Assembly (NCBI GenBank): GCA_036874045.1
Contig: JAZBRI010000010.1
Coordinates: 3,802,001-3,866,000, forward strand
DNA length: 64,000 nt
Source: Cymodocea nodosa
Taxonomy: Eukaryota; Streptophyta; Magnoliopsida; Alismatales; Cymodoceaceae
Direction of reading: 5' to 3'
In this document: positions 24,881-54,414 of the stretch, piece after piece
Position numbering within the stretch: the stretch's first letter is position 1
How the letters are laid out: every line of letters starts with the position of its first letter
Notes under the pieces: generated by a model
What the model was told of the DNA's origin: nothing
Seen by the model: the letters and a program-made list of their open reading frames with translations, nothing else
Databases searched by the model: none
Made by a program: the position numbers and the translations under genes

Positions 24881-25990
24881 TGTAAAATGTCAATTTGTGC
24901 ATTTTATATATGTTAATTCATGCATATTAAGGATTATAAGTCATCATTATATATGTTTTTATAAAGGATTACATGAAAATCATATTTTTAGACATATGCA
25001 TGAATTAGGGATTAAATAGTTGATAATGTACAAATTTATCCTTTATCAATTAAACACCTAGTCAATAGCCCTTGTATTAGACATAATTCTTATAATTCTT
25101 CAATGTATGACTTTATATACATTGTATGATTGCTAAATCAGTTAAATATGATGTTAAACTAAAGAACTTTAAGTAATTCATGTATGTACATGTGAAAAAG
25201 TTGTAGACCAAAACCATCCTAATTTGGCAACTTTCCATATATGGCAACTTATGCATGCATGTATACTATATTTGCATCATATGATTTATATTCAATGTAT
25301 ATGTGCATCCAACTTGGTTTTGAGTTTTATAGGTCAATAAATCATGAAATCAAGGTGGATTAAAGAGGAAAAAACGTGGGCCATTGGATGCAACTTATTG
25401 GAGCCCAAGCAACAAAAGCCTAAAGTATCTAAAGTGTTTGACCACTCAATTGTAGGCTATCTCCTTCTCTTCCAACACATTGCAGCCGGCAGTTCTAGCC
25501 ATTCCAGCATCTCCGTCCGGAAAGTCCCATCTTCCCCTTGTTCTTGAACAAGCTCCCTTCAAGAATGGTGAGCTTTGGCGTCTTCCACTCCTCCTAGAAG
25601 ACACCTTCTGTTCAATTCAGATGGCCATACGTTAGGATCTCCTTGGGCATTCATCTTGGTGGATTGGGAGGCTCGTGTGACTGATTTGGAGTGGAGCAAA
25701 AGGTTAGGATCTTCAGGGTTGAGTCATCGGAAGCACCATTCTTAGATGTGGAAGCCAAAGTTGTTGGTCTTGAAGGCAAGATCTTGAGGATGTGCACCAC
25801 TCTTCTTCAAGGCAACCTTAGAAGCTTCACTTGGACGTGCTACAGGGTGGTGACAGCCTAGTGGAGCATCGATTTCAAGGACTTTGGGGAGTCATTGCTT
25901 GAAGAAACGTGGAGGATTAAAAGGTATGATGGAAAGGAGAGATCCTCATACTAGTTTTCATGTTTTACAATTTTATATGTATGAGTATAG
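24881..25990 (+). repeat. Athila-like LTR, family A, first 1110 bases (copy b)
   Basis: Begins TGTAAAATGTCAATTTGTGC directly after copia gag sequence. It matches 26290-27399 nearly base for base, then breaks at TATAGTTTGAG into copia gag sequence. It is the left unit of a tandem duplication. The small frame at 25344-25547 recurs in all family A LTR copies simply because the LTRs are similar. Confidence 0.88.
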
Positions 25991-26289
25991 TTTGAGAGCC
26001 ATCTTCTTTTTGTCCATCAATCTCTTCTTCTTATCTCCTTGATCTTCTTCTGTCTGAAATGGACAGAAGGTCTGTATGTGCCCTTACCTTTACATTTGAA
26101 ATATGTAGGGCCCGTTCTTTTAGAAGAGCTGGACTTATTCTTTTTCTTCATAAACTTTCTAAAGTTCCTTGCCAACAACATGATCTCATCATCGTCTGAG
26201 CTTAGAACTTCCCCTGTGGATGGAAATGCCATTTCCTTTTTCTTTTCAGCTTTCTTTTCAACAGCTCCTTCTTGCTCTTTCTAGTCCTT
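25991..26289 (-). pseudogene. Duplicated fragment of outer copia gag
   Basis: Repeats 24581-24880 with few changes, including the shared TAG (26281-26283) and the DDDEIMLLARNFRKFMKKKN segment. It lies between a broken and a complete LTR of family A, which shows that gag fragment and LTR were duplicated together. Confidence 0.88.
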
Positions 26290-28442
26290 TGTAAAATGTC
26301 AATTTGCACATTTTATATATGTTAATTCATGCATATTAAGGATTATAAATCATCATTATATATGTTCTTATAAAGGATTACATGAAAATCATATTTTTAG
26401 ACATATGCATGAATTAGGGATTAAATAGTTGATAATGTACAAATTTATCCTTTATCAATTAAACACCTAGTCAATAGCCCTTGTATTAGACATAATTCTT
26501 ATAATTCTTCAATGTACGACTTTATATACATTGTATGATTGCTAAATCACTTAAATATGATGTTAAACTAAAGAACTTTAAGTAATTCATGTATGTACAT
26601 GTGAAAAAGTTGTAGACCAAAACCATCCTAATTTGGCAACTTTCCATATATGGCAACTCATGCATGCATGTATACTATATTTGCATCATATGATTTATAT
26701 TCAATGTATATGTGCATCCAACTTGGTTTTGAGTTTTATAGGTCAATAAATCATGAAATCAAGGTGGATTAAAGAGGAAAAAACGTGGGCCATTGGATGC
26801 AACTTATTGGAGCCCAAGCAACAAAAGCCTAAAGTATTTAAAGTGTTTGACCACTCAATTGTAGGCTATCTCCTTCTCTTCCAACACATTTCAGCCGGCA
26901 GTTCTAGCCATTCCAGCGTCTCCGTCCGGAAAGTCCCATCTTCCCCTTGATCTTGAACAAGCTCCCTTCAAGAATGGTGAGCTTTGGCGTCTTCCACTCC
27001 TCCTAGAAGACACCTTCTATTCAATTCAGATGGCCATACGTTAGGATCTCCTTGGGCATTCATCTTGGTGGATTGGGAGGCTCGTGTGACTGATTTGGAG
27101 TGGAGCAAAAGGTTAGGATCTTCAGGGTTGAGTCATCGGAAGCACCATTCTTAGATGTGGAAGCCAAAGTTGTGGGTCTTAGAGGCAAGATCTTGAGGAC
27201 GTGCACCACTCTTCTTCAAGGCAACCTTAGAAGCTTCACTTGGACGTGCTACAGGGTGGTGACAGCCCAGTGGAGCATCGATTTCAAGGGCTTTGGGGAG
27301 TCATTGCTTGAAGAAACTTGGAGGATTAAAAGGTATGATGGAAAGGAGAGATCCTCATACTAGTTTTCATGTTTTACAATTTTATATGTATGAGTATAGT
27401 TTGAGTATGTGGAAGGACGAAATTCTATGCATAAATCTTTGTTTCAAATGTTCTATATTAAAGATCACATACTGTTTTGATGTTAATTGATATAAGAATT
27501 GAGTTCATATCATATGTTTTGTGTGAATGATTATGATGGTGTAAATTGTGAAGGCAGTTTTCTGTTTCTTAGATGGCCAGAATGTTAGTAGCTTTTCTTC
27601 GAATTGTATGCACTTGTTTGTCATCTATAAATTCCGTTTTTTGTTTCATTTTGTAAGTATAATGAATGTAGAATATGTTTACAAAGTTTTAGAATTTTTT
27701 AGAATGTTTTTCGAAGATTTTCGATTTTATTTTGTGAAGGTATCAGTGGTTTTGAGTCTATGTCGAGTGCTAATTTTGAGCTCGACGCTTGTGCTATGCT
27801 TGCATCGTGTATCTTGTGGAATTTAGTTCTGTAAATTTTCCTTGTTAGCGTAACAGATCTACTTTCAAGGCGCGTGTATTTCGTAGCATTTCATGAAGAT
27901 TTGATAGAGATTTGATTTTTGCACCGAAGGTGCGTTTTTGGAAAGTTTCCATAACCGTCTGCGCCCCTTTCTTAAATAAGATATTGCCAGCGTTTTAGTT
28001 TGTTTTAATCCACAAAATTACTTCCATTTGAAAGATATTCTGAGGATCTTTTCAACAGTTATTTATTCTGTATTGTTAAATGTTCAAGTTGGAAGTTATT
28101 GGAGTTAAAAGTCGAGCATAAATTCTGTGATTTCTGGATTAATACTCATTGATTTCTTTAATTTCTTATCATAACTAATTGGATTTTGGGGTAATCATAT
28201 AAACCTTAATTACGTTATGAAATTTGTATATTAATATTAAGTAATTAGAGTTTAATTATGTGTTAGTTTAATGTGGATATTTAATCGGATAATCATTTTA
28301 ATAAAAATTATTTAAGACAAACTCCTTGTGGATTCGACCCGTACTTGCACATGCTTATTACAATGGGCACCGTGCGCTTGCGGTTATAAATGTAAAATTT
28401 ACACTTTTACCATTAATTTAACAACACATAAAAATGTTTACA
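26290..28442 (+). repeat. Athila-like LTR, family A, complete (copy c)
   Basis: 2153 bases, TGTAAAATGTC to AATGTTTACA. The 3' part holds the conserved block CTTGTGGATTCGACCCGTAC (28326) and GCGCTTGCGGTTATAAATG. Only AGTTTTT of the usual PBS-side spacer follows; the primer site itself is missing and inverted LTR sequence starts at 28457. Confidence 0.9.
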
Positions 28443-28456
28443 AGTTTTTTAAAATT

Positions 28457-29469
28457 GACTCCCCAAAGTCCTTGAAATCGATGCTCCACTAGGCTGTCAC
28501 CACCTATAGCACGTCCAAGTGAAGCTTCTAAGGTTGCCTTGAAGAAGAGTGGTGCACGTCCTCAAGATCTTGCCTCCAAGACCCACAACTTTGGCTTCCA
28601 CATCTAAGAATGGTGCTTTCGATGACTCAACCCTGAAGATCCTAACCTTTTGCTCCACTCCAAATCAATCACATGAGCCTCCCAATCCACCAAGATGAAC
28701 GCCCAAGGAGATCCTAACGTATGGCCGTCTGAATTGAAGAGAAGGTGTCTTCTAGGAGGAGTGGAAGACGCCAAAGCTCACCATTCTTGAAGGGAGCTTG
28801 TTCAAGATCAAGGGGAAGATGGGACTTTTCGGACAGAGATGCTTGAATGGCTGGAACTACCGGCTGCAATGTGTTGGAAGAGAAGGAGATAGCCTACAAT
28901 TGAGTGGTCAAACACTTTAAATACTTTAGGCTTTTGTTGCTTGGGCTCCAATAAGTTGCATTCAATGGCCCACGTTTTTTCCTCTTTAATACATCTTGAT
29001 TTCATGATTTATTGACCTATAAAACTCAAAACCAAGTTGGATGCACATATACATTGAATATAAATCATATGATGTAAATATAATATACATGCATGCATGA
29101 GTTGCCATATATGGAAAGTTGCTAAATTAGGAAGGTTTTGGTCCACAACTTTTTCACATGTGCATACATGAATTACTTAAAGTTCTTTAGTTTAACATCA
29201 TATTTAAGTGATTTGGCAATCATACAATGTATATAAAGTCATATATTGAAGAATTATAAAAATCATGTCTAAAACAAGGGCTATTGACTAGGTGTTTAAT
29301 TGAATAAAGGATAAATTTGTACATTATCAACTATTTAATCCCTAATTCATGCATATGTCTAAAAATATGATTTTCATGTAATCCTTTATAAGAAAATATA
29401 TAGTGATGACTTATAATCCTTAATATGCATGAATTAACATATATAAAATGCACAAATTGACATTTTACA
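28457..29469 (-). repeat. Athila-like LTR, family A, inverted 1013-base piece (copy d)
   Basis: Reverse complement of LTR bases 1-1013: it matches 26290-27302 in inverted order and ends at TACA next to CACCCCCATACCT, the purine tract of the minus strand. Together with copy c it forms a large inverted repeat with a spacer of about 1.15 kb. Confidence 0.88.
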
Positions 29470-30189
29470 CACCCCCATACCTAGTCTTTGCTAGTCCCTT
29501 AGCAAAGGAGTAAAGCTAAACAATGATAACACAAAGCCCATATAAAAGTACATTCATTAAAAACCAAAAACAAAAAAAACTAATAAATAAATAACAAAAA
29601 TAAAACTAACCTAGGCCACATTCGTTGGGATCACAACTACACTTAGCATGTGTAGCAAGCCTTTAAACCCCTAGGTCACCCTAGTGGTGGAGTTGTGTCT
29701 CCAAAGGGTTTTCAGCAGATATACCCACAAAATCCAAAACAAAACATAAAATAACACAATTAAAAGACAAAAACAACAAAAATATGCTCTTGGTTTCCTA
29801 AACATGGATAAAGTTGCTCTTAAGTAATCTTGACCTATTAGCTTCACCTTTATTCAATCACCTCTCACCTTTCTAGATTGGATTCAAATAATCATTCAAT
29901 TTCCATCCAAAGAAAGTAAAGTACTATATAAATAAGTATATGTAAAAATGGCCAAGACTAAGAAACAACCTACTCAACTCCCTCCAAGTTACCTAAGTAA
30001 TCCCAAAGGTCTATCCTTGAGTCCATTGTCCTTTTATTTTGACTGTTTTTTTTTTCTTTTCTTTTTTTCTCTCTTTTTATTATGTCCTACTCCAGCACCT
30101 TTTTACGCGACCACAATCCCTTACTTAGGGGAAAGTTGACTAGTTACTCAGTAGCTTTTGTAAGAACAAGTAATCAATCTCTCTTCTAC

Positions 30190-30220
<31 letters not shown>

Positions 30221-31783
30221 CTTTTTTTTTTCTCTCTTCCTAGCCCTTTACCCTTAAGAGTGCCTCCCACATCATTGTGTAGGAATGGGCAATTTTTCCT
30301 TAGCCTTTTTATTCTACCCTTCTCATAAGACAACCCCAAGGTATATTCCTAAGTTTTTACCTAAGTTTCCCTTCAAGAGGAGTGGTTCCTTTCTAGTCAA
30401 GGCCTCATGTAAGTGCAATACTACATATAAGCTCAAAAATATGGATGGTTTTCAATTTTATTCTTCTCCTCCCCTTAAGGTTCAAGGTTTCTTTCCTAAA
30501 GGATTCACTTTTAGGTCTCAATTATACCTAAAAGAATTCTATCCATTAGGGCCTATGAGCATTTATAAAACAAAATAAACAAGAAAAAGTATAAAATCGA
30601 AAAAAAATTGTCGTCAAATGCCTCCCCCCATACCTAAATTTTGCATTGTCCCCAATATAAAAGAAATCATTTAGGTAATAAGATAAAAAGCTTGAAGACG
30701 ACAAAAACAAAAGAAACAAACTATGACAAGTAAGAAAAGATTACACCCCCATACCTAGCATACAATCCATATACATTGTATAAATTTAAATTGCATTATT
30801 CCTAAAACATACAATGGAGATTGAGTAGTATGCTAAAGAAATAATGCTTAATATAAGTATCATTCAAATGCATCATATAGTAATAGGATTAAGAGTGCGT
30901 ACCTTGCTTGACGAAGAAAAGACTCAACTACAAAACTAATAAACATATCAAAATAGAAAAGAAAATATATATAAAGCACACAAACAACAAAATTAAATTA
31001 TTTATTTATAATAATTTTTTCTTTTTATTTTTTTTTAATAATTTATTATTATTATTATTAGTAGTAGTAGTAGTAGTACTAGTTATCTATAATGACATGC
31101 AAAACTAATTAAATGAGCAAACATAATTCATTCAAGTACTTAGGTCTTTAGTAATACTAGCAATTTGCAATATAATAAAAGAATTGAAAAGTAATCATTT
31201 TTAATTCCACTTAAGGCCTAATTTTCCTTAACTCATTCAATCACATGATCTTACTTTCATGCCACTATGATCAGTATAAAAACACCATGTATTTTATCAA
31301 CAAAACATCAACTTCATCCAAAGTTTTATCTTTAACAAGCAAACATAATATTCCAGAAATTAAACTGTGCTACTATAAATTCAAGATTTTCTACAAAAAT
31401 TCATACAACTTAGAAATTCACAATTAAATATTCTTCTGAAAGATAATTACTTTTATTTTCTAAGAAAAATTAGAGACAAAAATTTCCAAAATTGAAGTAT
31501 TGTCAAAATCAAGTGAAACTCAGATAACTCAGACTTCATAATCTGTAGAACATGTCATTTTAGAAAAATTCTCCAAAAATGTATACAAATCCAAATACAA
31601 CATATAATACCTTGTTTGAAAGATAAACTACTGTAGTTTCAAAGAAAAATTATAAAAATAATTTTTAACTCAACATTTAATTGCAGTTTTGATTTTACGT
31701 ATGCAAATAAAGAAAAATACCAGAAAAACTGCATCCATAGGGAGTTCGGAAGGTTAGGTGGCTAACCTTCCGGAAAGGAAAAA
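29470..31783 (-). mobile_element. Internal region of the coding-free family A derivative (minus strand)
   Basis: From the purine tract (29470-29482) inward the sequence is the 3' untranslated region, with AGGTATGGGGGG-type motifs, a pyrimidine-rich stretch (30040-30240) and a TTA/TAG-repeat junction at about 31020-31085. Then comes the second half of the leader up to the hairpin at 31747-31772. It is the reverse complement of about 44093-46369, including the same deletion junction. No element protein lies within it. Confidence 0.75.
31747..31772. repeat. Hairpin at the orientation switch
   Basis: CGGAAGGTTAG, loop GTGG, CTAACCTTCCG: an 11-base perfect stem. It lies 11 bases before the point where minus-oriented family A sequence changes to plus-oriented. 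Confidence 0.85.
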
Positions 31784-33060
31784 TATTTAATATCCTTTAA
31801 ATTGTTTTAGTTTTATTTGTTTTCTTGTTGAGATTGTTATTTTTCTTTGTTTGTTTGCAAAGAAATGGATACATGGATTGGCCGTTCTATGTGTTCAATT
31901 CTTTGTTATCTGAATTGCTTGTTACATGTTTAATTCAAGTTTATGATTTGGTGACAAGTAGCTTAATGGAGTAATGATAATCTTTGTGTACAAATTATTA
32001 AGACAGAATTTGTCTATCTGTAAATTTAAATTTTTTGATGTGCACGAGATTAGAACTCATTTTTATGATATTTTTCCTGAAATACTCAATTTCTGAGATT
32101 TCTTTTGAGTACTTATGCATAAAATTCTGAATTGTATGTTAAAAGATAAAAATCCTAGAAGACAGGGATATTTTGTAGATTTCTAAACAATTTTCTTCTA
32201 ATGATTTTTTGAAAAAAATCTATATATTTGAGTATTAAAAATTTAATTTAGTATTTTTTTTCAAAAACTAGAGGAAATTATCTTTCCAACAAATATTTAC
32301 ATGTATCATTTCGATTTATGTAAATTTCTATGTGATTTTTCTAAATTAAGGAGGTAAGTTGTTAATTTTGGGTTAAACAACTCGTTGAGTTAGTTAACTC
32401 AACGAGTTGTCTCTATCCAGAACTCGTTAACTTAACGAGTTGGTCCTTCATAGAACTCGTTTAGTTAGATAACTCAACGAGTTACTGCATCTAATTTTTT
32501 GGTGTAGAACAGTTTTATCATGTACTCTTATATTTGAAACTACAGTTATATGTTTGAATAAAAATTATTTTTGAAAATTTTATATGAAACTACAGTAGTT
32601 TATCTTTCAAAAAAGGTATTATATGTTGTATTTGGATTTGTATACATTTCTGGAGAATTTTTCTAAAATGACATGTTCTACAGATTACGAATTCTGAGTT
32701 ATCTGAGTTTTACATGATTTTGACAATACTTCAGTTTTGGAAATTTTTGTCTCTGATTTTTCTTAGAAACTAGAAGTAATTACCTTTCAAAAGAGTATTT
32801 ATTTGTGAATTTACATGCCATATGAATTTATGTAGAAAACTTTTAAGCCAAGGTAGTACAGTTTAGTTTCAGAAATTCCGTGACTACCTGTTTTAGATGA
32901 AACTCAGATTATATACAATGTTTGCGAGATATATGCTTTTCTGTTTGTATCTAGAATTTAGTGGCATGATAATAGAATAGTCACTGAATGAATCTACGAA
33001 AAATTAAGTTTCAAGTAAAAGAAAAAAAAATTGTTTATCAATTTCTCTATTATGTTGCAG
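31784..33060 (+). mobile_element. Leader of the pol-bearing family A copy
   Basis: Plus-strand sequence homologous to 42941 onward, starting abruptly at TTTAATATCCTTTAAATTG. It is non-coding and holds a set of palindromes at 32377-32480, where the derivative copy has a different palindrome class. It ends TATGTTGCAG just before ORF1, which resembles a 3' splice site. The primer site and 5' LTR in the proper orientation are missing, since the sequence to the left is inverted. Confidence 0.75.
32377..32480. repeat. Palindrome cluster, CGTTGAGTTA class
   Basis: The first unit is a perfect 16-base stem, ACAACTCGTTGAGTTA, with a 2-base loop and its complement (32377-32410). Two shorter units follow: AACTCGTTAACTTAACGAGTT at about 32431-32451 is itself nearly palindromic, and the next joins ACTCGTTTAGTTA with TAACTCAACGAGT. 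Confidence 0.88.
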
Positions 33061-33082
33061 ATTTGCTTAAATCACTTGAAGA

Positions 33083-33918
33083 TTGTGCTTGATTGAATAC
33101 ATTCGGTTTGTTCATTTAGCTAAAAATTTTCATGCCATTCTAGATAAATATTTAATTTATAATATGGATGAATTTAGTTTTAATTTGACACCTACATGTT
33201 CCAAATGCAAATTGAATAATCATGTTGATGCTGATTGCCCATTTTATATGCTAAATAGCAATGTAGGTGCATGTTCTAGTTCTAATGTTAGCCTATCTAT
33301 GCCAAATTTAAATTATAATGCTGATGTTTATGACACTAGTAGCTATAGTTGTGAAATTAAAATGGAAAAGTTTATAGGAAATATTCCTTATGCTGAATCT
33401 TCAATCAACTTAGCTAAGGCAATTGCTGAACTTAACACCTCTATGGATTTATTAAACTTAGCAAAAGCCTCTAGTGCCCCCATTTACATAGATGGTTATG
33501 AAAACATAGATTTAAGATCAACATCCTTGGTTGAGGATGAATCAATTGAAACTTATGTTGCTTTAAGGTTCGGGAGAGAGGTGAGCATTCCTAAAAAGGA
33601 AACTCCTTCTCTTGTACCAATGAGTGTTTCTACAGATGATTTAGGTTCATCCAATCAACTAAATAAAGAATCTGAAAATGAAATTTTATTGGGTGATAAA
33701 AAGGGTAAAGGTAAGTTATCCGAGGTAAGTATCCCTTTAGAAAGTCAACCTGCCTCTTTTCCCCATAGATTAAGAATATTGATCAGAATATTATGATGAG
33801 AGAAATCTTTGAACAGGTTAGTATTAACATTCCATTACTAGATGCAACAGAGTAAATACCTGCCTATGCCAAGTTTTTAAAGGAATTATGTACAAAGAAA
33901 CGAGCTAGGAAGACACCT
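33083..33918 (+). pseudogene. Family A ORF1: zinc-knuckle region ahead of protease
   Basis: Open for 237 residues from 33083, then frameshifted. A CCHC-like knuckle CSKCKLNNHVDADC is at about residues 40-53; its usual Gly before His is Asn. The remainder is polar and acidic with no retrotransposon capsid domain that I can see. After the shift near 33780 another frame reads EQVSINIPLLDATE stop IPAYAKFLKELC, which is the usual lead-in to the protease of Athila-like elements. In most elements Gag would sit here; in this one Gag lies after integrase. Function inferred: N-terminal part of Pol, or a reduced Gag tail. Confidence 0.65.
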
Positions 33919-34334
33919 ATGAAAGTGTGCTTAGCTAAATCCGTTAGTGCTTATTTCTGTCAAGACTTGCCTAAGAAGTTTAGTGATCCAGGTACTCCAA
34001 CCATCTCTTGTACAATTGGAGATACCAATTTTGATAGAGCATTGATAGATTTAGGAGTAGGAATAAATGTTATGTCATCTGGTGTTTATGTGAACCTAGG
34101 ACTTAATGGTATTCAACCCACTAAGGTTCTCATTCAACTAGCTGACCATTCTTTTAGAACTCCCTTAGGAGTTGTTGAAAACATATTGATTAAGATTAAA
34201 GATTTTGTCTATCCCATAGATTTTATTGTCTTAGAAAATCAACCTTCACTTGGTAGAAAGCAGAATGTACCTCTTATTTAGGAAGACCCTTCCTAGCCAC
34301 AGTAGATGCATACATAGGATGTAGAGATGGGTCT
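33919..34334 (+). pseudogene. Athila-like aspartic protease
   Basis: The segment DPGTPTISCTIGDTNFDRAL is followed by IDLGVGINVMSSGVYVNLGL, which aligns with the Athila-type protease site (usually DLGAS). Then come LADHSFRTPLGVVENILIKI and PIDFIVLE. The catalytic Asp is present; the residues after it are changed. A frameshift near 34275 moves the end (GRPFLATVDAYIGCRDGSM) into another frame. It would process the polyprotein in an active relative. Confidence 0.78.
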
Positions 34335-35447
34335 ATGCAAATAACATATGGTGATGCTAAGGTTGATTTAAATAATTTTAAATCTCACCCAGACGTTAAA
34401 ATTTTAGATAATGAAAATTTTAATGTGAGCTTATTAAGCATTATGGATGAAGGTGAGCGAGTAGAAAATTATAGTTTATCCGAAGATGAAGATTATCCAC
34501 CTATAGAATATGAGGTTGATCTAACACATATCCATGACTTAGATGATGACATTGGTGAGAGTGATAATATTTTTGAATTAAATTACATAGAGCCTTTAGA
34601 AAGACATCTAGGAGAGATTAAGAAACCATCTATTGTAGAACCACCTTCTCTTGAACTAAAACCCTTGCCTCAAGACCTTAAGTATGCCTATTTGGGAAAA
34701 GAGAACACCTTGCCAGTTATTTTGTCTTCCCATCTTTCTAGAGAACAAGAAGAGAAGTTGTTGGTAATTTTAAAAGAACATAAGGAGGCCATTGGTTGGA
34801 CCATGGCCGACATCAAAGGAATTGACCTTAGTTTATGTCAACATAGAATTCATTTGAATAATGACAGTACACCTTCTAGGGATCCACAGAGAAGATTAAA
34901 CCCAAACATAAAACATGTGGTTAGAAAAGAAATTATTAAGTGGTTAGATCATGACATCATTTATCCTATTTCTGATAGTCCTTGGGTTAGCCCTATTTAG
35001 GTTGTCCCAAAGAAATCTGGTATTACAGTTATAGAAAATAGCAATCATGAACTAGTCCCTACTAGAGTGCAAACAGGATGGCGAGTGTGTATTGATTATA
35101 GGAAACTAAATACCGCCACTAGGAAAGACCATTTTCCCTTGCCTTTTATGGATCAAATGTTAGAGAAGTTAGCTAGGAAAGAATATTATTGTTTCCTAGA
35201 TGGTTATTCTGGATGTAACCAAATTCCTTTAGCACCTTGTGACCAAGAGAAAACCACATTCACATGTCCTTTTGGTACTTTTGCATTCCGGCGCATGCCC
35301 TTTGGTTTGTGTAATGCTCCTGCAACTTTTCAAAGGTGTATGACTGGAATCTTTTCGGACATGATTGATAACTTCTTAGAGATTTTTATGGATGATTTCT
35401 CTATGTCAAGTTCTTCCCTTGATGTGTGCCTTAAGAACTTAAAATAG
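34335..35447 (+). pseudogene. Athila-like reverse transcriptase
   Basis: An acidic linker of about 100 residues comes first, then KPLPQDLKYAYLGKENTLPV, GWTMADIKGIDLSLCQHRI and DSPWVSPI before a TAG at 34998-35000 (the family usually has Gln). After it: WRVCIDYRKLNTATRKDHFP, FLDGYSGCNQIPLAP, TTFTCPFGTFAFRRMPFGLC and IFMDDFSMSSSS. The FMDD catalytic box is intact. RT continues into the next frame after TAG at 35445-35447. The order and wording are those of the Athila branch of Ty3/gypsy. Confidence 0.88.
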
Positions 35448-35474
35448 GTTTTAAAAAGATGTAGAGAGAAAAAT

Positions 35475-36290
35475 TTGGTTTTAAATTGGGAGAAATGCCA
35501 CTTCATGGTGCAACATGGAATTGTGTTGGGCCATGTTGTTTCTAAGAATGGGTTGGAAGTAGATAAGGCTAAAGTAGACTTGATAGCCAACCTACCACCC
35601 CCTAAATCTGTTAAGGATATAAGAGCTTTTTTGGGTCATGCTAGGTTCTATAGACGATTTATTAAGCTTTTTAGTAAGATTGCTTGTCCTTTAACTAGTT
35701 TATTATTAAAGGATCATAAGTTTGAATTCTCTAGAGAATGTCAAGATGCCTTTGATAAGCTTAAGGGAGTCCTCACCTCAGCCCCTATTGTGTATCCACC
35801 CGATTGGTCTCAACCATTTGAGTTAATGTGCGATGCATCAGATTATGCAATTGGTGCTGTGTTGGGGCAAAGAATTGATAAATTACCTAGGGTAATCTAT
35901 TATGCTACTAAAACTCTTAATGTAGTCCAATTGAACTATACAGTTACAGAGAAAGAATTTTTAGCTATAGTTTTTGCTCTTGAGAAGTTTAGATCTTATT
36001 TGCTAGGCTCTAAGGTTATCATTTTCACTAATCATTCTACCATTAAATATTTATTAGCTAAAAAAGATGCTAAGGCTAGATTAGTTAGATGGATTCTTCT
36101 CTTGCAAGAATTTGATATTGAGATAAAAGATAAGAAAGGATGTGAGAACGTAGTTGCCGACCACTTGTCTCGTATTGTCACGCCTCAAGCGGAGTTACCC
36201 ATTGATGAATCATTTCCTAATGAGCAGTTGATGGCTATAACTCCAATCCCTTGGTTTGCAGATATTGTGAATTATCTTGTGACAAAATGA
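35475..36290 (+). pseudogene. RT end and RNase H, Athila-like
   Basis: 271 residues open: [20 protein letters not shown] (RT palm end), [20 protein letters not shown] (thumb), then RNase [59 protein letters not shown] and [13 protein letters not shown]. The RNase H Asp of the usual TDHS motif is Asn (TNHS), so the nuclease site is damaged even where the frame is open. Confidence 0.87.
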
Positions 36291-37554
36291 CTACCTAGCA
36301 ATTGGTCAAGGTAAGATATTAAGAGATTTTTAGCTAGTGCCAAAGAATTTTATTGGGATGACCCCTATCTTTATAAGTTAGGCCCTGATTTGATTTTGAG
36401 GAGATGCATCCCAGATATGGAAATTCATAGTGTGCTATCTTTTTGTCATGACCAACCTGCTGGTGTTCATCTTAACCCTATTAAGACTGCAACTAAAGTT
36501 CTTCAATGTCGTTTTTTTTGGCCCACATTGCATAAAGATGCATACTTCTATGTTAAAAATTGTAGAGATCGTCAAAAAGTAGGAAGATTGACTAGAATAA
36601 ATATGATGTCGCTTACACCAATTATTGAAGTTGAAGTATTTGACGTGTGGGGTATTGATTTCATGGGACTCTTCCCTAATTTTGGAGGGTATTGGTATAT
36701 TCTATTAGCTATTGATTATGTGTCCAAATGGGTTGAAGCTATTCCCACACGAACTTGTGATTCTAAGGTAGTAATAAATTTTATTAAGAGCAACATTTTT
36801 GCTAGATTTGGCATTCCTAGAGCAATCATTAGTGATAGGGGAATGCACTTTAATAATAGAAGTTTTGAACTATTAATGAAAAAATTTGGAGTAAACCATA
36901 AAATGACAACCCCCTATCACCCACAAACCAATGGACAAGTAGAAAATGCCAATAAGCAAATTAAGCAAATTTTGGAAAAGATAGTTGGAAAGACAAGAAA
37001 AGATTGGGCAGAAAAGTTAGATGAGGCATTATGGGCTTATCGGACTGCTTTTAAGTCTATTTTAAATGTCTCCATATAGAGTAGTGTTTGGAAAGGCATG
37101 TCATTTACCAGTAGAGCTTGAGCATAAGGCAAGATGGGCTATTCAAAGACTCAACTTAGATTTAAAGGCTGCTGGTAAGAAAAGAAATTTTCAATTAACT
37201 GAATTAGAAGAAATACGAAGAGAGGCATATGAGAATTCATGGATAGCTAAAGAAAGGAGTAAAGTATTTCATGATAGCAAGTTCTTCCGTAAGAATTTTG
37301 AAGTAGGGCAGCAGGTATTGTTGTATAATTCTAGACTACATCTATTTCCTGGTAAGTTAAGGTCACAGTGGATAGGACCTTTTGTGGTAAAAAGTACGTT
37401 CCCTCATGGAGCAATGGAGATTGAAAACCCTAAGAGTGGGCAAGTTTCTAAGGTCAATGGCCACCGTTTAAAACCTTTCTTGCAACAAAGATTATTTGGC
37501 CATGGAGAGAATATTGTTTTAATCGATGCTGTCTATGCTGAATCTGATAATTAG
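36291..37554 (+). pseudogene. Integrase, Athila-like
   Basis: Zinc-binding domain: SFCHDQPAGVHLNPIKTATK, FFWPTLHKDAYFYVKNCRDR; the last Cys of the HHCC set is replaced by Arg. Core: VWGIDFMGLFPNFGGYWYIL (first Asp), IISDRGMHFNN (second Asp), TPYHPQTNGQVENANKQIKQ (Glu). A frameshift near 37070 leads to the C-terminal part [20 protein letters not shown] through [20 protein letters not shown], typical of Athila and Tat integrases. No chromodomain follows. Stops between 36288 and 36390 separate it from RNase H. Confidence 0.88.
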
Positions 37555-37756
37555 TGCTCTTTTGTTTTTCTTTTTATTAGTTTTAGATGTAATTACTCTT
37601 ATTTCTTTTTGTTGATTGTGTCATTATGTAAATCATGTTTTTCAATTATGTACTTACCTACCTAACATGCAGGTGTTGGGATCAGAGACTATTCCACTAT
37701 AAGTGTCACTTGTACTTTTTGTTATCAAAATATTTCTTTTGTGATATTGTTAGTGT

Positions 37757-39154
37757 ATGCAATCTTCTAAGTGGGTGAGAGATAGTGCATCTAGATTAAT
37801 TAGACAAACCCCTTTAGAAGAAGAAGTTAGTGTGTTAGAAGAGCTTGTAAGGATGGGAGACCATGGTAGAAACCAACAATTACTTTCTCTTGAGGACATT
37901 TGCTATCCTCAAATACATGACCATCCCTCTTGTCTTGTATTACTTCAAGTAGATGGACATAAATTTTAATTGCATATGAATTATGTCAATCAGTTGCCTA
38001 GATTTCATGGACTAGATAAGGAAGATGCATATGCATTTCTAAATGACTTTAATGATGCTTGCAACATGATTAATCTACCTGAAGTACCTGTGGATGCAAT
38101 AAAGTTGATATTTATTCCTTTCGCTCTTCAAGATGATGCAAAGCTATGGTTGAACACCCTTCCTGTTAATTCCATTTGTACTTGGACTGATTTTTGTGCT
38201 GTCTTTATTAAGAAATTTCATCCTTTGCATAAGACCATTCAAGCTAAGAATGCTATTCTAAACATTTGCCAACAAACCAACGAACCTTTATGGAAATATT
38301 TTGAACGTTTCAATAAACTAGTGGCAAAATGTCCTAATCATGGTCTACCTAAATCAAGACAGTGTCAAGTAATCTATGAAGGATTGGATTATCAAACCAA
38401 GTTGATGTTAGAATTTGTATGTCCTGGACGATTCATGAGATTAGATGAAGTCAGTGCATGGGATAGACTTGTGGACCTTGCTGAGAGAACAATGGAAATG
38501 GAAAGTTCATCAGATAGAACATTTGATAGAACTTTGGCAAGGGGAATGCACACAATAGACCCCATGGTAGGCATGGAAGCTAGGATGTCGTCCATGGTTA
38601 AAAAAGTAGAAGATCTGATTATAAGTCAACAAAAGGGAAAAGATAAAGTGATTGAAGTCAAGTGTATAGCATGTGGAATTCCTGGGCACATAATGGAAGA
38701 ATGCCCTACTATGCAAGGACAACAGTTTGAGGAAGTCAATGCCATTGGTATGGGACAAAGGTCATTCCAACCGTCATCACACTATACCCCAGGATGGAGA
38801 AACCATCCCAATTTTTCGTGGCGACAACTGGAAGCACCTGGAAACCGTACTGAGCATCATGGACCCACTTAGCCAAATTTAAGTGATAGAATGTCTGCTT
38901 TGGAGAAAAGATTCACTAAAATGGAGAAAGGGATTCAATCCCTAATTCAAGATAGCGGACAAGTAAATACCATTTTAGCTAGCCATGACCAAATCATTAA
39001 GGGATTAGAAGCAAAGTTTGATAGGTTGTCTACTTCATCTAGAGGTAGAGCATGGGGAGAATTACCAAGTAACACTGTACCAAATCCCCACTTGCCAAGT
39101 GTGCATTTGACACAAGGAGTGACTTCAGGAACTAACCCTTCACCATCTACATGA
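37757..39154 (+). pseudogene. Family A Gag, located downstream of integrase
   Basis: 466 codons in one frame with only two stops (TAA 37967-37969, where the minus-strand copy has CAA, and TAG 38870-38872). The capsid domain is clear: LPRFHGLDKEDAYAFLNDFN, AIKLIFIPFALQDDAKLWLN, FIKKFHPLHKTIQAKNAILN, WKYFERFNKLVAKCPNHGLP. A CCHC knuckle CIACGIPGHIMEEC lies near residue 310. The tail (FTKMEKGIQSLIQDSGQ, then RGRAWGELPSNTVPNP) resembles the end of Athila Gag. The ORF begins 200 bases after the integrase stop, behind ACCTAACATGCAG, an acceptor-like site. No capsid domain is found upstream of pol. Placement after pol is unusual; a second copy (52231-53628) has the same 3' neighbours. Confidence 0.85.
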
Positions 39155-40725
39155 GTAGATATATATAAAAGAAAAAACAAAAACAAAAACAAAAACAAAA
39201 ATTTCTTTTTGTTAATATTTTTATTCTTAATCGCATGCTATATTTCTGTTTATATAAATTTCTTTTCTGTTTTGATATGTTTGTTAGTTTTGTAGTTATT
39301 ATTTTTCTTCATCAAGCAAGGTACGCACTCTTCACCTTATTTTTGTATGATGCATTTGAATGATACATGTATTGAACATTATTTCTTCAACATACTACTC
39401 AATCTCCATTGTATGTTTTAGGAATAATACAATTTAAATTTACACATGTGCATATGGATTACATGCTAGGTATGGGCGTGTAATCTGTCCTTGCTTGTCA
39501 TTGTTTGTTTCTTTTATTTTTGTCATCTTCATGCTTTTTATCTTACTACCTAATTGATTTCTTTTACATTGGGGACAAAGCAAAACTTAGGTATGGGGGG
39601 GAGGCATTTGACGACAGTTTTTTTTCAATTTTGTACTTTTTCTTGTTTATTTTGTTTTATAAATGCTCATAGGCCCTAATGGATAGAGTTCTTTTAGGTA
39701 TAATTGAGTTATAAAGGTGAATACTTTAGGAAAGAAACCTTGAACCTTAAGGGGAGGAGAAGAATAAAATTGAAAACCATCCATATTTTTGAGCTTATAT
39801 GTAGTATTGCACTTACATGAGGCCTTGACTAGGAAAGAACCACTCCTCTTGAAGGGAAACTTAGGTAAAAACATAGGAATATACCTTGGGGTTGTCCTAT
39901 GAGAAGGGTAGAATAAAACGGCTAAGGTAAAATTGCCCGTTCCTACACAATAATGTGGGAGGCACTCTTAAGGGTAGAGAGCTACAATGAGAGAGAAAAG
40001 AAAAAGAAAAAAAAAAAGAATAAGAGAGATTGATTACTTGTTCTTACAAAAGCTACTGAGTAACCGGTCAACTTTCCCCTAAGTAAGGGATTGTGGTCAT
40101 GTAAAAAGGTGCTGGAGTAGGAGATAATAAAAAAGAGAGAAAAAAAAAAATTGAAAAAAAAGAGAGTCAAAATAAAAGGATAATGGACTCAAGGATAGAC
40201 CTATGGGATTACCTAGGTAACTTGGAGGGAGTTGAGTAGGTTATTTGTTAGTCTTGGCCAATTTCACATACACTTATTTATATAGTACTTTACTTTCTTA
40301 GGATGGAAATTGACTAATTATTTGAATCCAATCTAGAAAGGTGAGGGGTGATTGAATAAAGGTGAAGCTAATAGGTCAAGACTACTTAAGAGCAACTTTA
40401 TCCATGTTTAGGAAACCAAGAGCATGTTTTTGTTGTTTTTTGTCTTTCATTTGTGTTGTTTCATGTTTTGTTTTGGATTTTGTGGATATATATGCTGAAA
40501 ACCCTCTGGAGACAAAACTCCACCACTAGGGTGACCTAGGGGTTTAAAGGCTTGCTACACATGCTAAGTGTAGTCGTGATCCCTATGAAAGTGGCCTAGG
40601 TTAGTTTTATATTGTTATTTATTTATTAGTTTGTTTGTTTTTGGTTTTTAATGAATGTACTTTTATATGGGCTTTGTGTTATCATTGTTTAGCTTTAGTC
40701 CTTTGCTAAGGAACTAGCAAAGACT
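39155..40725 (+). other. Family A 3' untranslated region
   Basis: Non-coding on the plus strand. It begins with (CAAAAA)n at 39176-39200 and contains three copies of a TAGGTATGGG-type motif (39467-39480, 39589-39602, 40726-40738), a purine-rich section (39985-40170) and conserved stretches found in every family A copy. An antisense frame at 39647-39874 is listed separately. Confidence 0.75.
39647..39874 (-). other. Conserved antisense ORF in the family A 3' region (uncertain)
   Basis: 75-residue frame antisense to the element: FLPKFPFKRSGSFLVKASCK ... MDGFQFYSSPPLKVQGFFPK ... LYPLGPMSIYKTK. Homologous frames are open at 30285-30578 (97 residues) and broken by one stop in the copy at 51480-51745; the copy at 45242-45480 is also recognisable. 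Antisense ORFs between pol and the 3' LTR are known in the Tat branch. Here it may be chance conservation between young copies. Confidence 0.3.
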
Positions 40726-40738
40726 AGGTATGGGGGTG
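40726..40738 (+). promoter_or_regulatory. Polypurine tract, family A
   Basis: AGGTATGGGGGTG directly precedes the LTR start at 40739. Confidence 0.8.
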
Positions 40739-42875
40739 TGTAAAATGTCAATTTGTGCATTTTATATATGTTAATTCATGCATATTAAGGATTATAAGTC
40801 ATCATTATATATGTTCTTATAAATGATTACATGAAAATCATATTTTTAGACATACGCATGAATTAGGGATTAAATAGTTGATAATGTACAAATTTATCCT
40901 TTATCAATTAAACACCTAGTCAATAGCCATTGTATTAGACATAATTCTTATAATTCTTCAATGTATGACTTTATATACATTGTATGATTGCTAAATCACT
41001 TAAATATGATGTTAAACTAAAGATCTTTAAGTAATTCATGTATGTACATGTGAAAAAGTGGTAGACCAAAACTTTCCTAATTTGGCAACTTTCCATATAT
41101 GGCAACTCATGCATGCATGTATGCTATATTTGCATCATATGATTTATATTCAATGTATATGTGCATCCAACTTGGTTTTGAGTTTTATAGGTCAATAAAT
41201 CATGAAATCAAGGTGGATTAAAGAGGAAAAAAATGTGGGCCATTGGATGCAACTTATTGGAGCCCAAGCAACAAAAGCCTAAAGTATCTAAAGTGTTTGA
41301 CCACTCAATTGTAGGCTATCTCCTTCTCTTCCAACACATTGCAGCCGACAGTTCCAGCCATTCCAGCATCTCCGTCCGGAAAGTCCCATCTTCCCCTTGA
41401 TCTTGAACAAGCTCCCTTCAAGAATGGTGAGCTTTGGCGTCTTCCACTCCTCCTAGAATACACCTCTTCAATTCAGACGGCCATACGTTAGGATCTCCTT
41501 GGGCGTTCATCTTGGTGGATTGGGAGGCTCATGTGACTGATTTGGAGTGGAGCAAAAGGTTAGGATCTTTAGGGTTGAGTCATCGGAAGCACCATTCTTA
41601 GATGTGGAAGCCAAAGTTGTGGGTCTTGGAGGTAAGATCTTGAGGACGTGCACCACTCTTCTTCAAGGCAACCTTAGAAGCTTCACTTGGACGTGCTACA
41701 GGTGGTGACAGCCCTATGGAGCATCGATTTTAAGGACTTTGGGGAGTCATTGCTTGAAGAAACGTGGATGATTAAAAGGTATGCTGGAAAGGAGAGATCC
41801 TCATACTAGTTTTCATGTTTTACAATTTTATATGTATGAGTATAGTTTGAGTATGTGGAAGGACGAAATTCTATGCATAAATCTTTGTTTCAAATGTTCT
41901 ATATTAAATATCACATACTGTTTTGATGTTAATTGATATCAGGATTGAGTTCATATTATATGTTTAGTGTGAATGAATGTGATGATGTGAATTGTGAAGG
42001 CAGTTTTCCGTTCTTAGATGGCCAGATTGTTAGTAGTTTTTCTTTGAATTGTATCTACTTGTTTGTCATCTATAAATTCCGTTTTTTGTTTCGTTTTGTA
42101 AGTATAATGAATGTAGAATAAGTTTACAAAGTTTTAGAATTTTTTAGAATGTTTTCCGAAGATTTTCGATTTTATTTTTTGAAGGTATCAGCGGTTTTGA
42201 GTCTCTGTCGAGTGCTAATTTTGAGCTCGACGCCTGTGCTGTGCTTGCATCTTGTATTTTTTGGAATTCAGTTCTGTAAATTTTCCTTGTTTGTGTAATG
42301 GATCTACTTTCAAGGCGCTCTTATTTCGTAACATTTCATGAAGATTTGACGGAGATTTAATTTTTTACCGAAGGTGTGTTTTTGGAAAGTTTCCATAACC
42401 ATCTGCGCCCCTTTCTTAAATATGATATTGCCAGCGTTTTAATTTGTGTTAATACACAAAATCAATGCCATTTGAAAGATATTCCGAGGATCTTTCCAAC
42501 CCTTATTTATTCTGGATTTTTTAACGTTCAAATTGGAAGTTATTGGAGTTAAAATTTGAGCATAAATTCTGTGATTTCGAGATTAATACTCATTGATTTC
42601 TTTAATATCTTATCATAACTAATTGGATTTTGGGGTAATCTTATAAACTTTAATTGTGTTACGAAATTTGTATATTAATATTAAGTAATTAGAGTTTAAT
42701 TATATGTGGATATTTAATTGGATAATCATTTTAATAAAAATTATTTAAGACAAACTCCTTGTAGATTGGACCCGTACTTGCACATGCTTATTACAATGGG
42801 CACCATGCGCTTGCGGTTATAAATGTAAAATTTACGCTTTTACCGTTAATTTAACAACACATAAGAGCGTTTATA
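40739..42875 (+). repeat. Athila-like LTR, family A, complete (copy e), shared by two internal regions
   Basis: 2137 bases, TGTAAAATGTC to GCGTTTATA (other copies end TTTACA). Its left flank is the purine tract of the pol-bearing copy and its right flank is a primer-binding site, so it serves as 3' LTR of one unit and 5' LTR of the next. Confidence 0.9.
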
Positions 42876-42881
42876 AGTTTT

Positions 42882-42898
42882 TAGCGCCGTTGTCGGGG
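42882..42898 (+). promoter_or_regulatory. Primer-binding site, tRNA-Asp type
   Basis: TAGCGCCGTTGTCGGGG differs at two positions from the complement of the plant tRNA-Asp 3' end (TGGCGCCGTTGCCGGGG), the site used by Athila-like elements. Confidence 0.82.
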
Positions 42899-43523
42899 AG
42901 TTTTGGTGCTTTAAAATGATTTATTAGATGATTTGCAAGATTTAATATCCTTTAAATTGTTTTAGTTTTATTTGTTTTCTTGTTGAGTTATTATTTTTCT
43001 TTGTTTGTTTGCAAAGAAATGGATACATGGATTGGCCATTCTATGTGTTTAATTCTTTGTTATCTGAATTGCTTGTTACATGTTTGATTAAAGTATATAA
43101 GTGGTAACAAGTAGCTTAATAGAGTAATGATAATCTTTGTGTACAAAATATTAAGACAAAATCTGTCTGTATGGAATTTTAAATTTTTTGATGTGTACGA
43201 GATTAGAACTCATTTTTATGATATTTTTCCTAAAATACTCGGTTTCTGAAATTTCTTTTGAGTACTTATGCATAAAATTTTGATTAGTATGTTAAAAGAT
43301 AAAAATCTTAGAAAACAGGGATGTTTTATAGAATTCTAGATAGGTTTCTGCTAACGAATTTTGAAAATATGATATTATGAAAGTATTTAAAATTTAATTC
43401 AATGATTTTTTCCAGAAACTAGATGAAATTATATTTCTAACGAGTATTTATATGCTTCATTTGGATTTATATAAATTTCTGTGTGATTTTTTAAAGTTGG
43501 CATATCAGATTTAACCAACATTA

Positions 43524-43645
43524 TGAAAATCGGATAGTTATGGGCATAACTATCTAATTGTACAGTAAAATTGGATAGTTACATCCATAACTATCTGATT
43601 AAACAGTAAAATCGGATAGTTATTTTCGCTGATATTTTTCGGATG
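43524..43645. repeat. Palindrome cluster, CGGATAGTTAT class
   Basis: Units such as CGGATAGTTATG, GG, CATAACTATCT are repeated three times with short spacers containing TACAGTAAAAT. The cluster occupies the place that holds CGTTGAGTTA units in the pol-bearing copy (32377-32480). Confidence 0.82.
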
Positions 43646-44000
43646 GTTATTTTCTGGTGCAGAATAGTTTTATCTGAACTCTTATATTTGAAACTGAAGA
43701 TACATATTTGAATAAAACTTATTTTTGAAATTTTTCCATGAAACTACACGAGTTTACCTTTCCAACAATGTATTTTATGTTATATTTGGACTTATATACA
43801 TTTCTGGGGAATTTTTCAAAGATGACATGTTCTATAGATTACGAATTTGTGTTGTTTGAGGTTTTACATGATTTTGATAATACTTTAGTTTTGGAAATTT
43901 TTATCTTTGATTTTTTATAAAAACTAGAAGTAATTACCTTTCAGACAAGTATTTAATTGTAAATTTTGGAGCTGTATAATTCTCTGAAATTTTTTTTGCC

Positions 44001-44125
44001 ATTTCGGAAGGTTAGGTAGTTAACCTTCCGAAATCTTCATATTCTACTATTTTTCGGAAGGTTAACAGTTAACCTTCCGAAAATTTTTCCTTTCCGGAAG
44101 GTTAGGTGGCTAACCTTTCGAACTC
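44001..44125. repeat. Palindrome cluster, CGGAAGGTTA class
   Basis: Three stems: TTTCGGAAGGTTA with its complement (44001-44032); a 16-base perfect stem TTTTCGGAAGGTTAAC around a single base (44050-44082); and CCGGAAGGTTAG with a partial complement (44093-44120). Confidence 0.88.
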
Positions 44126-52230: not shown

Positions 52231-53628
52231 TCATGCAGATGGTGAAGGGTTAGTTCCTGAAGTCTCTCCTTGTGTCAAATGCACACCTGCCAAGCGGGGA
52301 TTTGGTATAGTGTTACTTGGTAATTCTCCCCGTGCTCTACCTCCAGATGAAGTAGACAACCTATCAAACTTTGCTTCTAATCCCTTAATGATTTGGTCAT
52401 GGCTAGCTAAAATGAGATTTACTTGTCCGCTAACTTGAATTAGGGATTGAATCCCTTTCTCCATTTTAGTGAATGTTTTCTCTAAAGTGGACATTCTATC
52501 ACTTAAATTTGGCTAAGTGGGTCCATGATGCTCAGTGCGGTTTCTAGGTGCTTCCAATTGTTGCCACGAAAAATTGGGATGGTTTCTCCATCCCGGGGTA
52601 TAGTGTGATGACGGTTGGAATGATCTTTGTCCCATACCAATGGTATTGACTTCCTCAAACTATTGTCCTTGCATTGCATGGCATTCTTCCATTATGTGCC
52701 CAGGAATTCCACATGCTATACACTTGACTTCAATCACTTTATCTTTTCCCTTTTGTTGACTTATAATCAGATCTTCTACTTTTTTAACCATGGATGACAT
52801 CCTAGCTTCCATGCCTACCATGGGGTCTATTGTGTGCATTCCCCTTGCCAAAGTTCTGTCAAATATTCTATCTGATGAACTTTCCATTTCCATTGTTCTC
52901 TCAGCAAGGTCCACAAGTCTATCCCATGCACTGACTTCATCTAATCTCATGAATCGTCTAGGACATACAGATTCTAACATCAACTTGGTCTAATAATCCA
53001 ATCCTTCATAGATTACTTGACACTGTCTTGATTTAGGTAGACCATGATTTGGACATCTTGCCACTAATCTATTGAAACGTTCAAAATATTTCCAAAAGGG
53101 TTCATTGGTTTGCTAGCAGATGTTTAGAATAGCATTCTTAGCTTGAATGGTCTTATGCAAAGGATGAAATTTCTTAATAAAGACAGCACAAAAATTAGTC
53201 CAAGTACAAATGGAATTAACAGGAAGGGTGTTCAACCATAGCTTTGCCTCATCTCGAAGAGCGAAAGGAATAAATCTCAACTTTATTGCATCCACAAGTA
53301 CTTCAGGTTGATTAATCATGTTGTAAACATCATTAAAGTCATTTAGAAATGCATATGCATCTTCCTTATCTAGTCCATGAAATCTAGGCAACTGATTGAC
53401 ATAATTCATATGCAATTGAAATTTATGTCCATCTACTTGAGGTAATACAAGACAAGAGAGATGGTCATGTATTTGAGGATAGCAGATGTCCTCAAAAGAA
53501 GGTAATTGTTGGTTTCTACCTTGGTCTCCCATCCTTACAAGCTCTTCTAACACACTAACTTCTTCTTCTAAAGGGGTTTGTCTAATTAATCTAGATGCAC
53601 TATCTCTCACCCACTTAGAAGATTGCAT
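52231..53628 (-). pseudogene. Family A Gag, second copy
   Basis: About 93 percent like the plus-strand Gag by eye over all 466 codons: SSKWVRDSASRLIRQTPLEE, LPRFHGLDKEDAYAFLNDFN, CIACGIPGHIMEEC, GELPSNTIPNP. Stops stand at 53113-53115, 52990-52992, 52660-52662 (all TAG) and before the last segment. Three of these positions are Gln codons in the other copy, and the last stop is shared. On its 5' side 170 bases match the region after integrase in the other copy, then an LTR fragment follows instead of pol. Confidence 0.85.
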
Positions 53629-53800
53629 ACACTAACAATATCACAAAAGAAATATTTTGATAACAAAAAGTACAAATGACACTTACAATGGAATAGTCTC
53701 TGATCCCAATACCTACATGTTAGATAGGTAAGTACATAATTGAAAAAACAAGATTTACATAATGACAAAATCAACAAAAAGAAATAAGAGTAATTACATC

Positions 53801-54414
53801 TAAAACAACTATTTAAATTAAAGAAATAAAGATTTAACAAAGATCCTAAACGTGCATACATTTATAAATTAAAAATACCTAAATACTCATACACATTTGA
53901 TATGAAAATATGTTTACAAGTATGAGGATCTCTCCCTTCTCTTTTACCTTTAATTCATCCACTTCTCTTCAAGCATTTGATCCCTATTTGATGATGAACC
54001 ACTTTGTCCGCTCCTCTACAAGGTTGTCACCACTTGCAAATCACGTCTAAAGGGGAACCGCCTATGTTTGCTTTGGAGAAAATGGGTTGCACGTCGTCAA
54101 TCCACTTCCAAGATATACAGATTTGTTGGCTTTCCTCTCAATTTTGATGCTTCCTATTACCTCATCTTGAAGATCACGTCCCAAGCTCTTCCAATGCTGC
54201 ACATGTGCCTCCAATACCATCGATTTCACTCGTGGAGGTCCTTCCGTATGTCGTCTTGGAGTAGAGTGAAGGAGGTCTTCTAGTATGAGGGGGAAGGCGC
54301 CTAAGCTCACCAATCTTGGAGGAAAACTCTTCCAAAATCTTGGGTGGAAGAGGATGGACGAAAGTTGGAGTTGGAGTTCTTGCCCTTGCGTGGAGGAGAA
54401 AGAGGAGATATTGT
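53801..54414 (-). repeat. Internal fragment of subfamily B LTR
   Basis: Reverse complement of about 12833-13455 of the solo LTR, for example GAGATCCTCATACTTGTAAA. It is joined to Gag upstream sequence at a shared AGTTGTTTTA, which suggests a microhomology joint. The other end passes into a short poly(A)-rich filler at 54430-54490. Confidence 0.78.

Follow-up and report, generated by a model that had tools for sequence, protein, structure and literature searches.

Gag encoded behind integrase in a group of Athila-like Ty3/gypsy retrotransposons of Cymodocea nodosa

The order gag before pol has been treated as a constant of long terminal repeat (LTR) retrotransposons and retroviruses, where it couples Pol production to Gag; readthrough or frameshifting into a Gag-Pol fusion is the usual way to dose Pol. 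The present analysis concerns an element of Ty3/gypsy type, assigned here to family A, on the plus strand of a 64,000-nt stretch of Cymodocea nodosa DNA (assembly GCA_036874045.1, contig JAZBRI010000010.1, positions 3,802,001 to 3,866,000; hereafter the window), in which a separate gag open reading frame (ORF) lies behind integrase (IN). The window is part of contig C10 of a 374.6-Mb genome assembled in 28 contigs. Described systems with which this arrangement can be compared are the Athila-lineage elements, including Calypso and Diaspora, the plant elements Bagy2, SIRE, and Retand, and the foamy viruses (Spumaretrovirinae), which are related to the elements studied here only as distant reverse-transcribing elements.

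As far as the available parts of their descriptions extend, Athila, Calypso, and Diaspora share with family A the order protease (PR), reverse transcriptase (RT), RNase H (RH), and IN, an RNase H unaccompanied by a second one, a CX2CX4HX4C knuckle in Gag, and long LTRs and a long leader. The primer site, which in Calypso and Diaspora is a tRNA-Asp site ~5 bp from the LTR (PMC1142308), has a putative counterpart just past the LTR in family A. An additional RNase H is given as the mark of the Tat lineage (PMC6317226). Diaspora has one continuous gag-pol ORF of 1892 codons (PMC1142308), whereas here a separate gag ORF stands behind pol. Bagy2, for which splicing has been reported (PMC7264820), SIRE, and Retand resemble family A in that a further ORF stands behind pol and before the 3' LTR; however, their extra ORFs are env-like, TRP28, or of unknown nature, and none is described as gag in the portions of the sources at hand (PMC7264820, PMC6317226, PMC11963269). 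The Pol of foamy viruses has its own start and is not fused to Gag, pregenomic RNA bridging Pol to Gag, according to the available part of one account (PMC6669543). The lack of a fusion and an RNA route of Pol into the particle would be common to both systems; foamy viruses differ in making Pol from a spliced RNA and in the order gag-pol-env, whereas here Gag is the downstream gene. No description of a Gag-behind-Pol order was found in the PMC literature as judged by titles and the beginnings of abstracts, with most subscription journals outside this scope. A large survey of plant elements states, in the part available, that elements with an unexpected domain order, among others, were always removed as likely mispredicted (PMC6317226). 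Lineages of the present kind may therefore have been filtered out, which is a warning for annotation.

The window copy reads 5' LTR, inverted piece, leader, ORF1 with a CCHC knuckle, PR, RT, RNase H, IN, Gag, 3' region, purine tract, and LTR (Table 1). Pfam domains agree with the initial annotation, which had proposed this order for the part from the zinc-knuckle ORF onward and had seen no capsid domain ahead of pol: the scanned ORF1 gave no Pfam match and thus has no recognizable capsid. The PR-RT-RH-IN order is that of Ty3/gypsy elements, as are the TG...CA LTR pair, purine tract, and target duplication of a copy on contig C19 described below; gag is not found in its Ty3/gypsy position upstream of pol. 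As in the Athila lineage, no second RNase H domain was found in the window copy by Pfam, and RNase H is followed by IN after ~25 nt in this copy. Copies of family A carry a primer-like site of the type TGGC..CGTTGCC ~6 nt past the LTR, and no such string occurs in seven scanned loci of other families. It is presumed to be a tRNA-Asp site, and the Athila label of the Gag and PR-upstream motifs is likewise presumed. The likeness of Gag and of the PR side, together with the single RNase H, suggests that the elements are probably related to Athila. The window copy itself is dead. Breaks in frame separate ORF1 from PR and PR from RT, a further one lies within IN, Gag has in-frame stops at 37967 and 38870, and the primer binding site was lost at the inverted piece.

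A second Gag copy, on the minus strand, had been taken to mean that the linkage of Gag to its 3' region is no private rearrangement. This copy does have the same flanks, matching positions 37580-40815 at 94% from ~170 nt upstream of Gag through Gag and the 3' region; since the 5' flank is joined to an LTR interior, it could not alone prove the linkage of Gag to pol. Matches elsewhere in the genome bear that linkage out. A 700-nt junction sequence, comprising the end of IN, the spacer, and the start of Gag, was recovered almost entire in each of the 40 matches scored (the best 40 of 192 candidates, window included), with 94-100% identity and on 19 contigs. In all 30 junction loci (window included) IN is followed by the N-terminal part and capsid of Gag; RNase H stands ahead of IN in 28 of them (it was not seen in L011 and L038), and Gag is cut short in one (L014). 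The IN stop is kept in all 30 copies, the Gag ATG, ~200 nt past it, is an ATG in 29, and the Gag TGA (39152-39154) is kept in 29. Both Gag stops of the window copy are minority variants, the codon being CAA at 37967 in 27 of the 30 copies and CAA or CAG at 38870 in 26.

LTR-bounded copies elsewhere in the genome have the same ORF order. Two such copies, on contigs C6 and C19, consist of an LTR-leader-ORF1-PR-RT-RH-IN stretch and a Gag-3' region-LTR stretch, their middle parts being read in L010 and L012, and both place Gag behind IN. In the C19 copy the LTRs are 96.8% identical, a target duplication of 5 bp (GTTAA) is present, and primer-site-like and purine tracts were found. The LTRs of the C6 copy are 97.1% identical; the end of the 3' one is unclear, and a target duplication was not seen. 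At a plant substitution rate of ~1.3e-8 per site per year, the LTR divergence of these two copies corresponds to about the order of one million years.

The order extends well beyond family A. A capsid search of the genome yielded at least 133 matches (131 scored of 6261 candidates; the figures cover the matches listed), whose identities form steps of 83-100, 62-75, and 55-61%. Across five further subfamilies, B to F, Gag is 39-76% identical to that of the window. Subfamilies B and C (L043-L046), which belong to the two lower steps, have pol followed by Gag in four of four loci, although the stretches fetched for L044 and L046 did not show the 5' part of pol. Subfamily D agrees in its one locus (L049, with a capsid 40.5% identical), as does subfamily F in two of two (L053 and L054, capsid ~41%). 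L053 contains a single open frame of 1454 codons for CCHC-PR-RT-RH-IN without a recognizable capsid, and then a separate Gag. In subfamily E (L047 and L050, one locus, Gag 38.8% identical), Gag lies ~3.8 kb behind IN, and between them stands an extra ORF (L050:688-1446, plus strand) weakly similar to PF20167 Transposase_32 (E 3e-4, below the cut-off), so that Gag sits behind an ORF in the env position. In E, the sequence that precedes Pol (L047 from 469) is found again after Gag (L057 from 2976), 97% identical across 1023 nt up to where the fetched stretch ends, which makes the E element LTR-bounded. E was also considered as two neighboring elements; this was rejected, since IN and Gag are not separated by any repeat of LTR size and the LTRs stand ahead of Pol and behind Gag.

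A private rearrangement, or a foreign gag piece nested in one copy and later amplified, would suit a window that is a nest of rearranged copies, and a scar of that kind does exist at L055 (below), but six subfamilies share the order at Gag identities down to ~39% and with synonymous divergence (dS) mostly saturated. The insertion of a foreign piece, a case raised by the initial annotation, is ruled against by this common order, and we regard the whole explanation as practically dismissed. The anatomy of the elements and the lineage-wide position of Gag after Pol are, in our judgment, virtually certain.

Pairing of the 133 listed Gag matches with the nearest same-strand IN among 149 listed IN matches placed IN within 8 kb on the 5' side of 76 Gag matches, 66 of them at 700-1100 nt. 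One further Gag match overlaps IN by 9 nt with IN first, giving 77/133 with IN on the 5' side; 56/133 are without an IN partner among the listed IN matches, and for none of the 133 does the nearest IN lie behind Gag. A canonical gag-pol form was sought with two protein probes from elsewhere. For P0002, which holds the C-terminal part of Gag and the PR-upstream part in one chain, 114 matches were listed, each covering one half: they end by residue 260 (Gag half) or start at residue 194 or later (PR half), and none has both WRNHPNFS and YAKFLK. For P0009 from Humulus, a 782-aa chain that unites capsid and PR, each of the 59 listed matches again covers one half (16-443 or 359-702). At a single locus, L055 on contig C14, the two P0009 halves are adjacent in canonical order. 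It was rejected as a canonical copy and is a rearrangement scar: the 270 nt between Gag and Pol include part of a family A LTR in inverted orientation (~250 nt, 88-90%), the Pol start is truncated and without CCHC, and inverted E pieces lie in the flank. An intact member with Gag ahead of PR, the counterexample envisaged at the outset, was thus absent among the matches listed. Neither a Gag search nor a Gag profile found relatives in viral contigs, and a protein search with ORF1 gave no match.

Comparison with relatives elsewhere indicates where gag was split. Their capsid, CCHC, WRNHPNFS, LRSGK, YAKFLK, and DLGAS motifs stand in one protein, as read as far as each protein extends and each pattern matches, and in P0009 and P0011 PR itself is in the same chain as Gag. 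In the elements studied here, the downstream Gag has CCHC and WRNHPNFS, and Pol keeps LRSGK, YAKFLK, and DLG behind a second CCHC (where the patterns match); this second CCHC was identified in subfamilies A, B, C, E, and F. On this view the separate Gag ORF behind IN would comprise the capsid, the nucleocapsid knuckle, and the coiled tail, and the last part of the old gag (LRSGK...YAKFLK), headed by its own CCHC, would have stayed before PR as the N-terminus of Pol. The order may have arisen once, when gag was partly duplicated and the two copies then underwent complementary losses. The distance between the Pol CCHC and LRSGK, 112-121 residues in L043, L045, and the F copies as against 150 in P0002 and 173 in P0006, fits such a history without proving it, and we hold this origin only tentatively, as somewhat less than an even prospect.

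In a Gag tree of 28 rows (midpoint root; family E covers about a third of the columns), nine downstream-order rows form one group with P0001 and P0007, on a long branch and with support 100/99. Seven rows labeled canonical, i.e., with LRSGK, YAKFLK, or PR after Gag in the same chain, and ten unlabeled rows fall outside this group. The downstream protein could also be a second, specialized Gag of env-like role, with a further capsid hidden in the leader or in ORF1. It does occupy the position where Athila relatives have env-like ORFs, according to the available part of one description (PMC7264820), but nothing similar to Gag was found upstream of Pol, either in the window or in the 5' sequence fetched for copies of B, C, D, E, and F, Pfam scans of ORF1 pieces from A and C gave no match, and in E the extra ORF precedes Gag. 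This explanation appears very improbable.

With Gag and Pol in separate frames and Pol first, the usual form of a Gag-Pol fusion is not available, so Pol must start at its own ATG and reach the particle by itself. The lack of a fusion is read from the sequence only: the IN stop stands in 30/30 copies, and a separate Gag frame ends in TGA in 29/30. We consider it highly probable that Pol is made without fusion to Gag. Pol would be translated from its own ATG and enter particles unfused, its N-terminal CCHC perhaps binding genomic RNA or Gag, comparable to the RNA bridging of foamy-virus Pol to Gag. Gag would come from a separate mRNA, most likely spliced from a donor in the leader to an acceptor in the IN-Gag spacer, and splicing would set the Gag:Pol ratio.

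The donor-like GAGGTAAGT is expected ~0.005 times per leader from base composition. The acceptor-like TTGCAG (AG ending at 33060) and ATGCAG (AG ending at 37672), which the initial annotation had found compatible with a spliced RNA, are present, and the AG at 37671-37672 is kept in 26/30 copies; scored as splice acceptors, the spacer candidates did not exceed those of the shuffled spacer. The best donor scores are 7.8 in A, 6.9 in F, 4.3 in B, and 2.2 in C, for the leaders of these four subfamilies. Moreover, GAGGTAAGT was picked after sighting; the window has two occurrences, a number reached in 6 of 100 window shuffles. The same order of genes would also allow Gag to be expressed without splicing, either from an internal promoter in 3' pol or from the full-length RNA, on which translation would start internally or re-initiate. 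The acceptor scores and the lack of an equally strong donor in the B and C leaders favor this alternative, as does the internal promoter near the 3' end of foamy viruses, mentioned in the available part of PMC6669543. Yet the perfect donor-like site is present in all three A copies examined, and the leaders of two copies, with 31 and 35 ATGs, make direct scanning to Pol or Gag unlikely. Unspliced expression is accordingly a serious candidate that we rate a little under the balance point; splicing is ranked first, as a first guess that stands at about that point, with internal promotion or internal initiation next. A second exact GAGGTAAGT lies inside ORF1 (33722-33730) and is also present in 3/3 copies examined.

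The observations as a whole are best explained by a diversified Athila-related Ty3/gypsy clade in which an ancestral gag-pro-pol frame was split, and we consider this explanation probable. Its fuller version falls just short of even likelihood: the clade would have abandoned fusion, with a 5' Pol made from genomic RNA and packaged via its own knuckle and Gag made from a spliced subgenomic RNA, the retroviral scheme thus being inverted in at least six subfamilies, probably after gag had been duplicated once and lost in part from each copy in a complementary way. The existence of a diversified clade with Pol first suggests that the coupling of Pol to Gag is dispensable, and the clade offers a natural system for studying the dosage and packaging of a Pol that is not fused to Gag.

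Several observations weigh against this reading. The pattern search gave no CCHC match at the N-terminus of D Pol, and clade members P0001 and P0007 come from elsewhere and carry no order label. LTRs were mapped for A and E only, all loci come from one genome, and the P0002 and P0009 matches were listed from 8608 and 11590 candidates, among which canonical copies could be missed. L048 (IN 65% identical) has no Gag in the stretches fetched, a case that counts for neither side; the ORFs of L052, which covers the next 4 kb downstream, look copia-like by eye. The selection data are also divided. Between family A and L044 of subfamily B, dN/dS is 0.14 for capsid and 0.12 for IN at dS of ~1.0 and 0.8 (rows with infinite dS and a printed ratio of 0.00 were ignored), so that Gag has been kept as a protein between A and B, both with Gag behind pol; this one informative comparison points to purifying selection on the downstream Gag. 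It is the sole informative Gag pair, at dS ~1, the other between-family Gag pairs being saturated, and within family A the ratio of nonsynonymous to synonymous changes in the Gag frame is not clearly different from that in control frames. Five Gag stop variants are common to three or more of the 30 family A copies and 23 were seen once, and a number of recent copies may have spread although their Gag was broken.

Such stops in many copies would be expected if the downstream Gag were dispensable and these partly parasitic elements took capsids in trans from canonical gag-pol elements; non-autonomous Athila families are known in Arabidopsis, from the available part of PMC2410132. Selection on Gag similar to that on IN between A and L044, the start and end of the Gag frame each kept in 29/30 copies, and the lack of an intact contiguous canonical gag-PR among the matches listed with the two probes speak against such dependence, which we judge improbable.

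Table 1. Features of the family A copy and of the second Gag copy in the window.
Feature	Coordinates	Strand	Remarks
5' LTR	26290..28442	+	TG...CA; 94.9% identical to 3' LTR
Inverted piece of coding-less relative	28441..31787	-	between 5' LTR and leader
5' leader, untranslated	31782..33163	+	matches leaders of L039, L041, and coding-less copies
Donor-like GAGGTAAGT in leader	32351..32359	+	present in 3/3 copies examined
ORF1, N-terminal part of Pol from its ATG	33164..33796	+	CCHC 33197-33238; LRSGK-like tail; no recognizable capsid
Protease	33856..34278	+	PF13650 E 7e-4, below Pfam cut-off; motifs IPAYAKFLK, ALIDLGV
PR-RT linker and reverse transcriptase	34257..35447	+	PF00078 E 3e-20; stop separates two pieces
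RNase H	35448..36290	+	PF17917, PF17919; RT_RNaseH E 2e-34
Integrase	36315..37554	+	PF17921, PF00665 (rve E 3e-16); frame broken here; TAG stop at 37552
IN-Gag spacer, non-coding	37555..37756	+	acceptor-like TGCAG ending 37672
Gag ORF	37757..39154	+	capsid PF03732 E 4e-19 at 37970-38869
Gag motifs	within 37757..39154	+	CCHC 38663-38704; WRNHPNFS 38795-38818; coiled tail
3' region	39155..40738	+	polypurine tract GGTATGGGGGTG at its end, adjoining LTR
3' LTR	40739..42875	+	begins TG at 40739; doubles as 5' LTR of adjoining coding-less copy
Second Gag copy, same flanks	52231..53628	-	one stop common with plus copy, three stops of its own
Junction of B-type LTR interior to Gag 5' flank	53798..53806	-	short microhomology

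The junction at 53798-53806 is the scar of a deletion or template switch. The window also contains copies resembling large retrotransposon derivatives without coding capacity (LARD-like), which comprise only LTR, leader, and 3' region, at 40739-48397, 59063-54481 (minus), and 28441-31787 (minus). Likeness of the first of these to the coding copy ends at about the Pol ATG (33164) and returns 95 nt past the Gag stop (39249). The similar ends of several such copies suggest that they are mobile non-autonomous partners. A 530-nt inverted pair (45917-46446 and 50551-51080) is 100% complementary, neighboring copies being mostly 90-97% alike; judged by this likeness, it is a recent conversion or duplication.

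Among the other elements of the window, a solo LTR of a related B-type family (12247-14421) with a 5-bp duplication GTAAG lies inside a copia copy, and a second copia copy at ~22714 represents its empty site. A tandem duplication of 1409 bp (24581-27405, 98%) extends from a copia flank into the beginning of the 5' LTR, and a head-to-tail duplication of ~716 bp, 85% alike, is located at 5004-6416. On contigs C7, C8, C10, C18, C21, and C22, several top-ranking PF00078 matches are located no more than ~30 kb from an end, and L003 contains 28 copies of the telomere-like unit CCCTAAA; these matches are possibly non-LTR elements clustered near telomeres.

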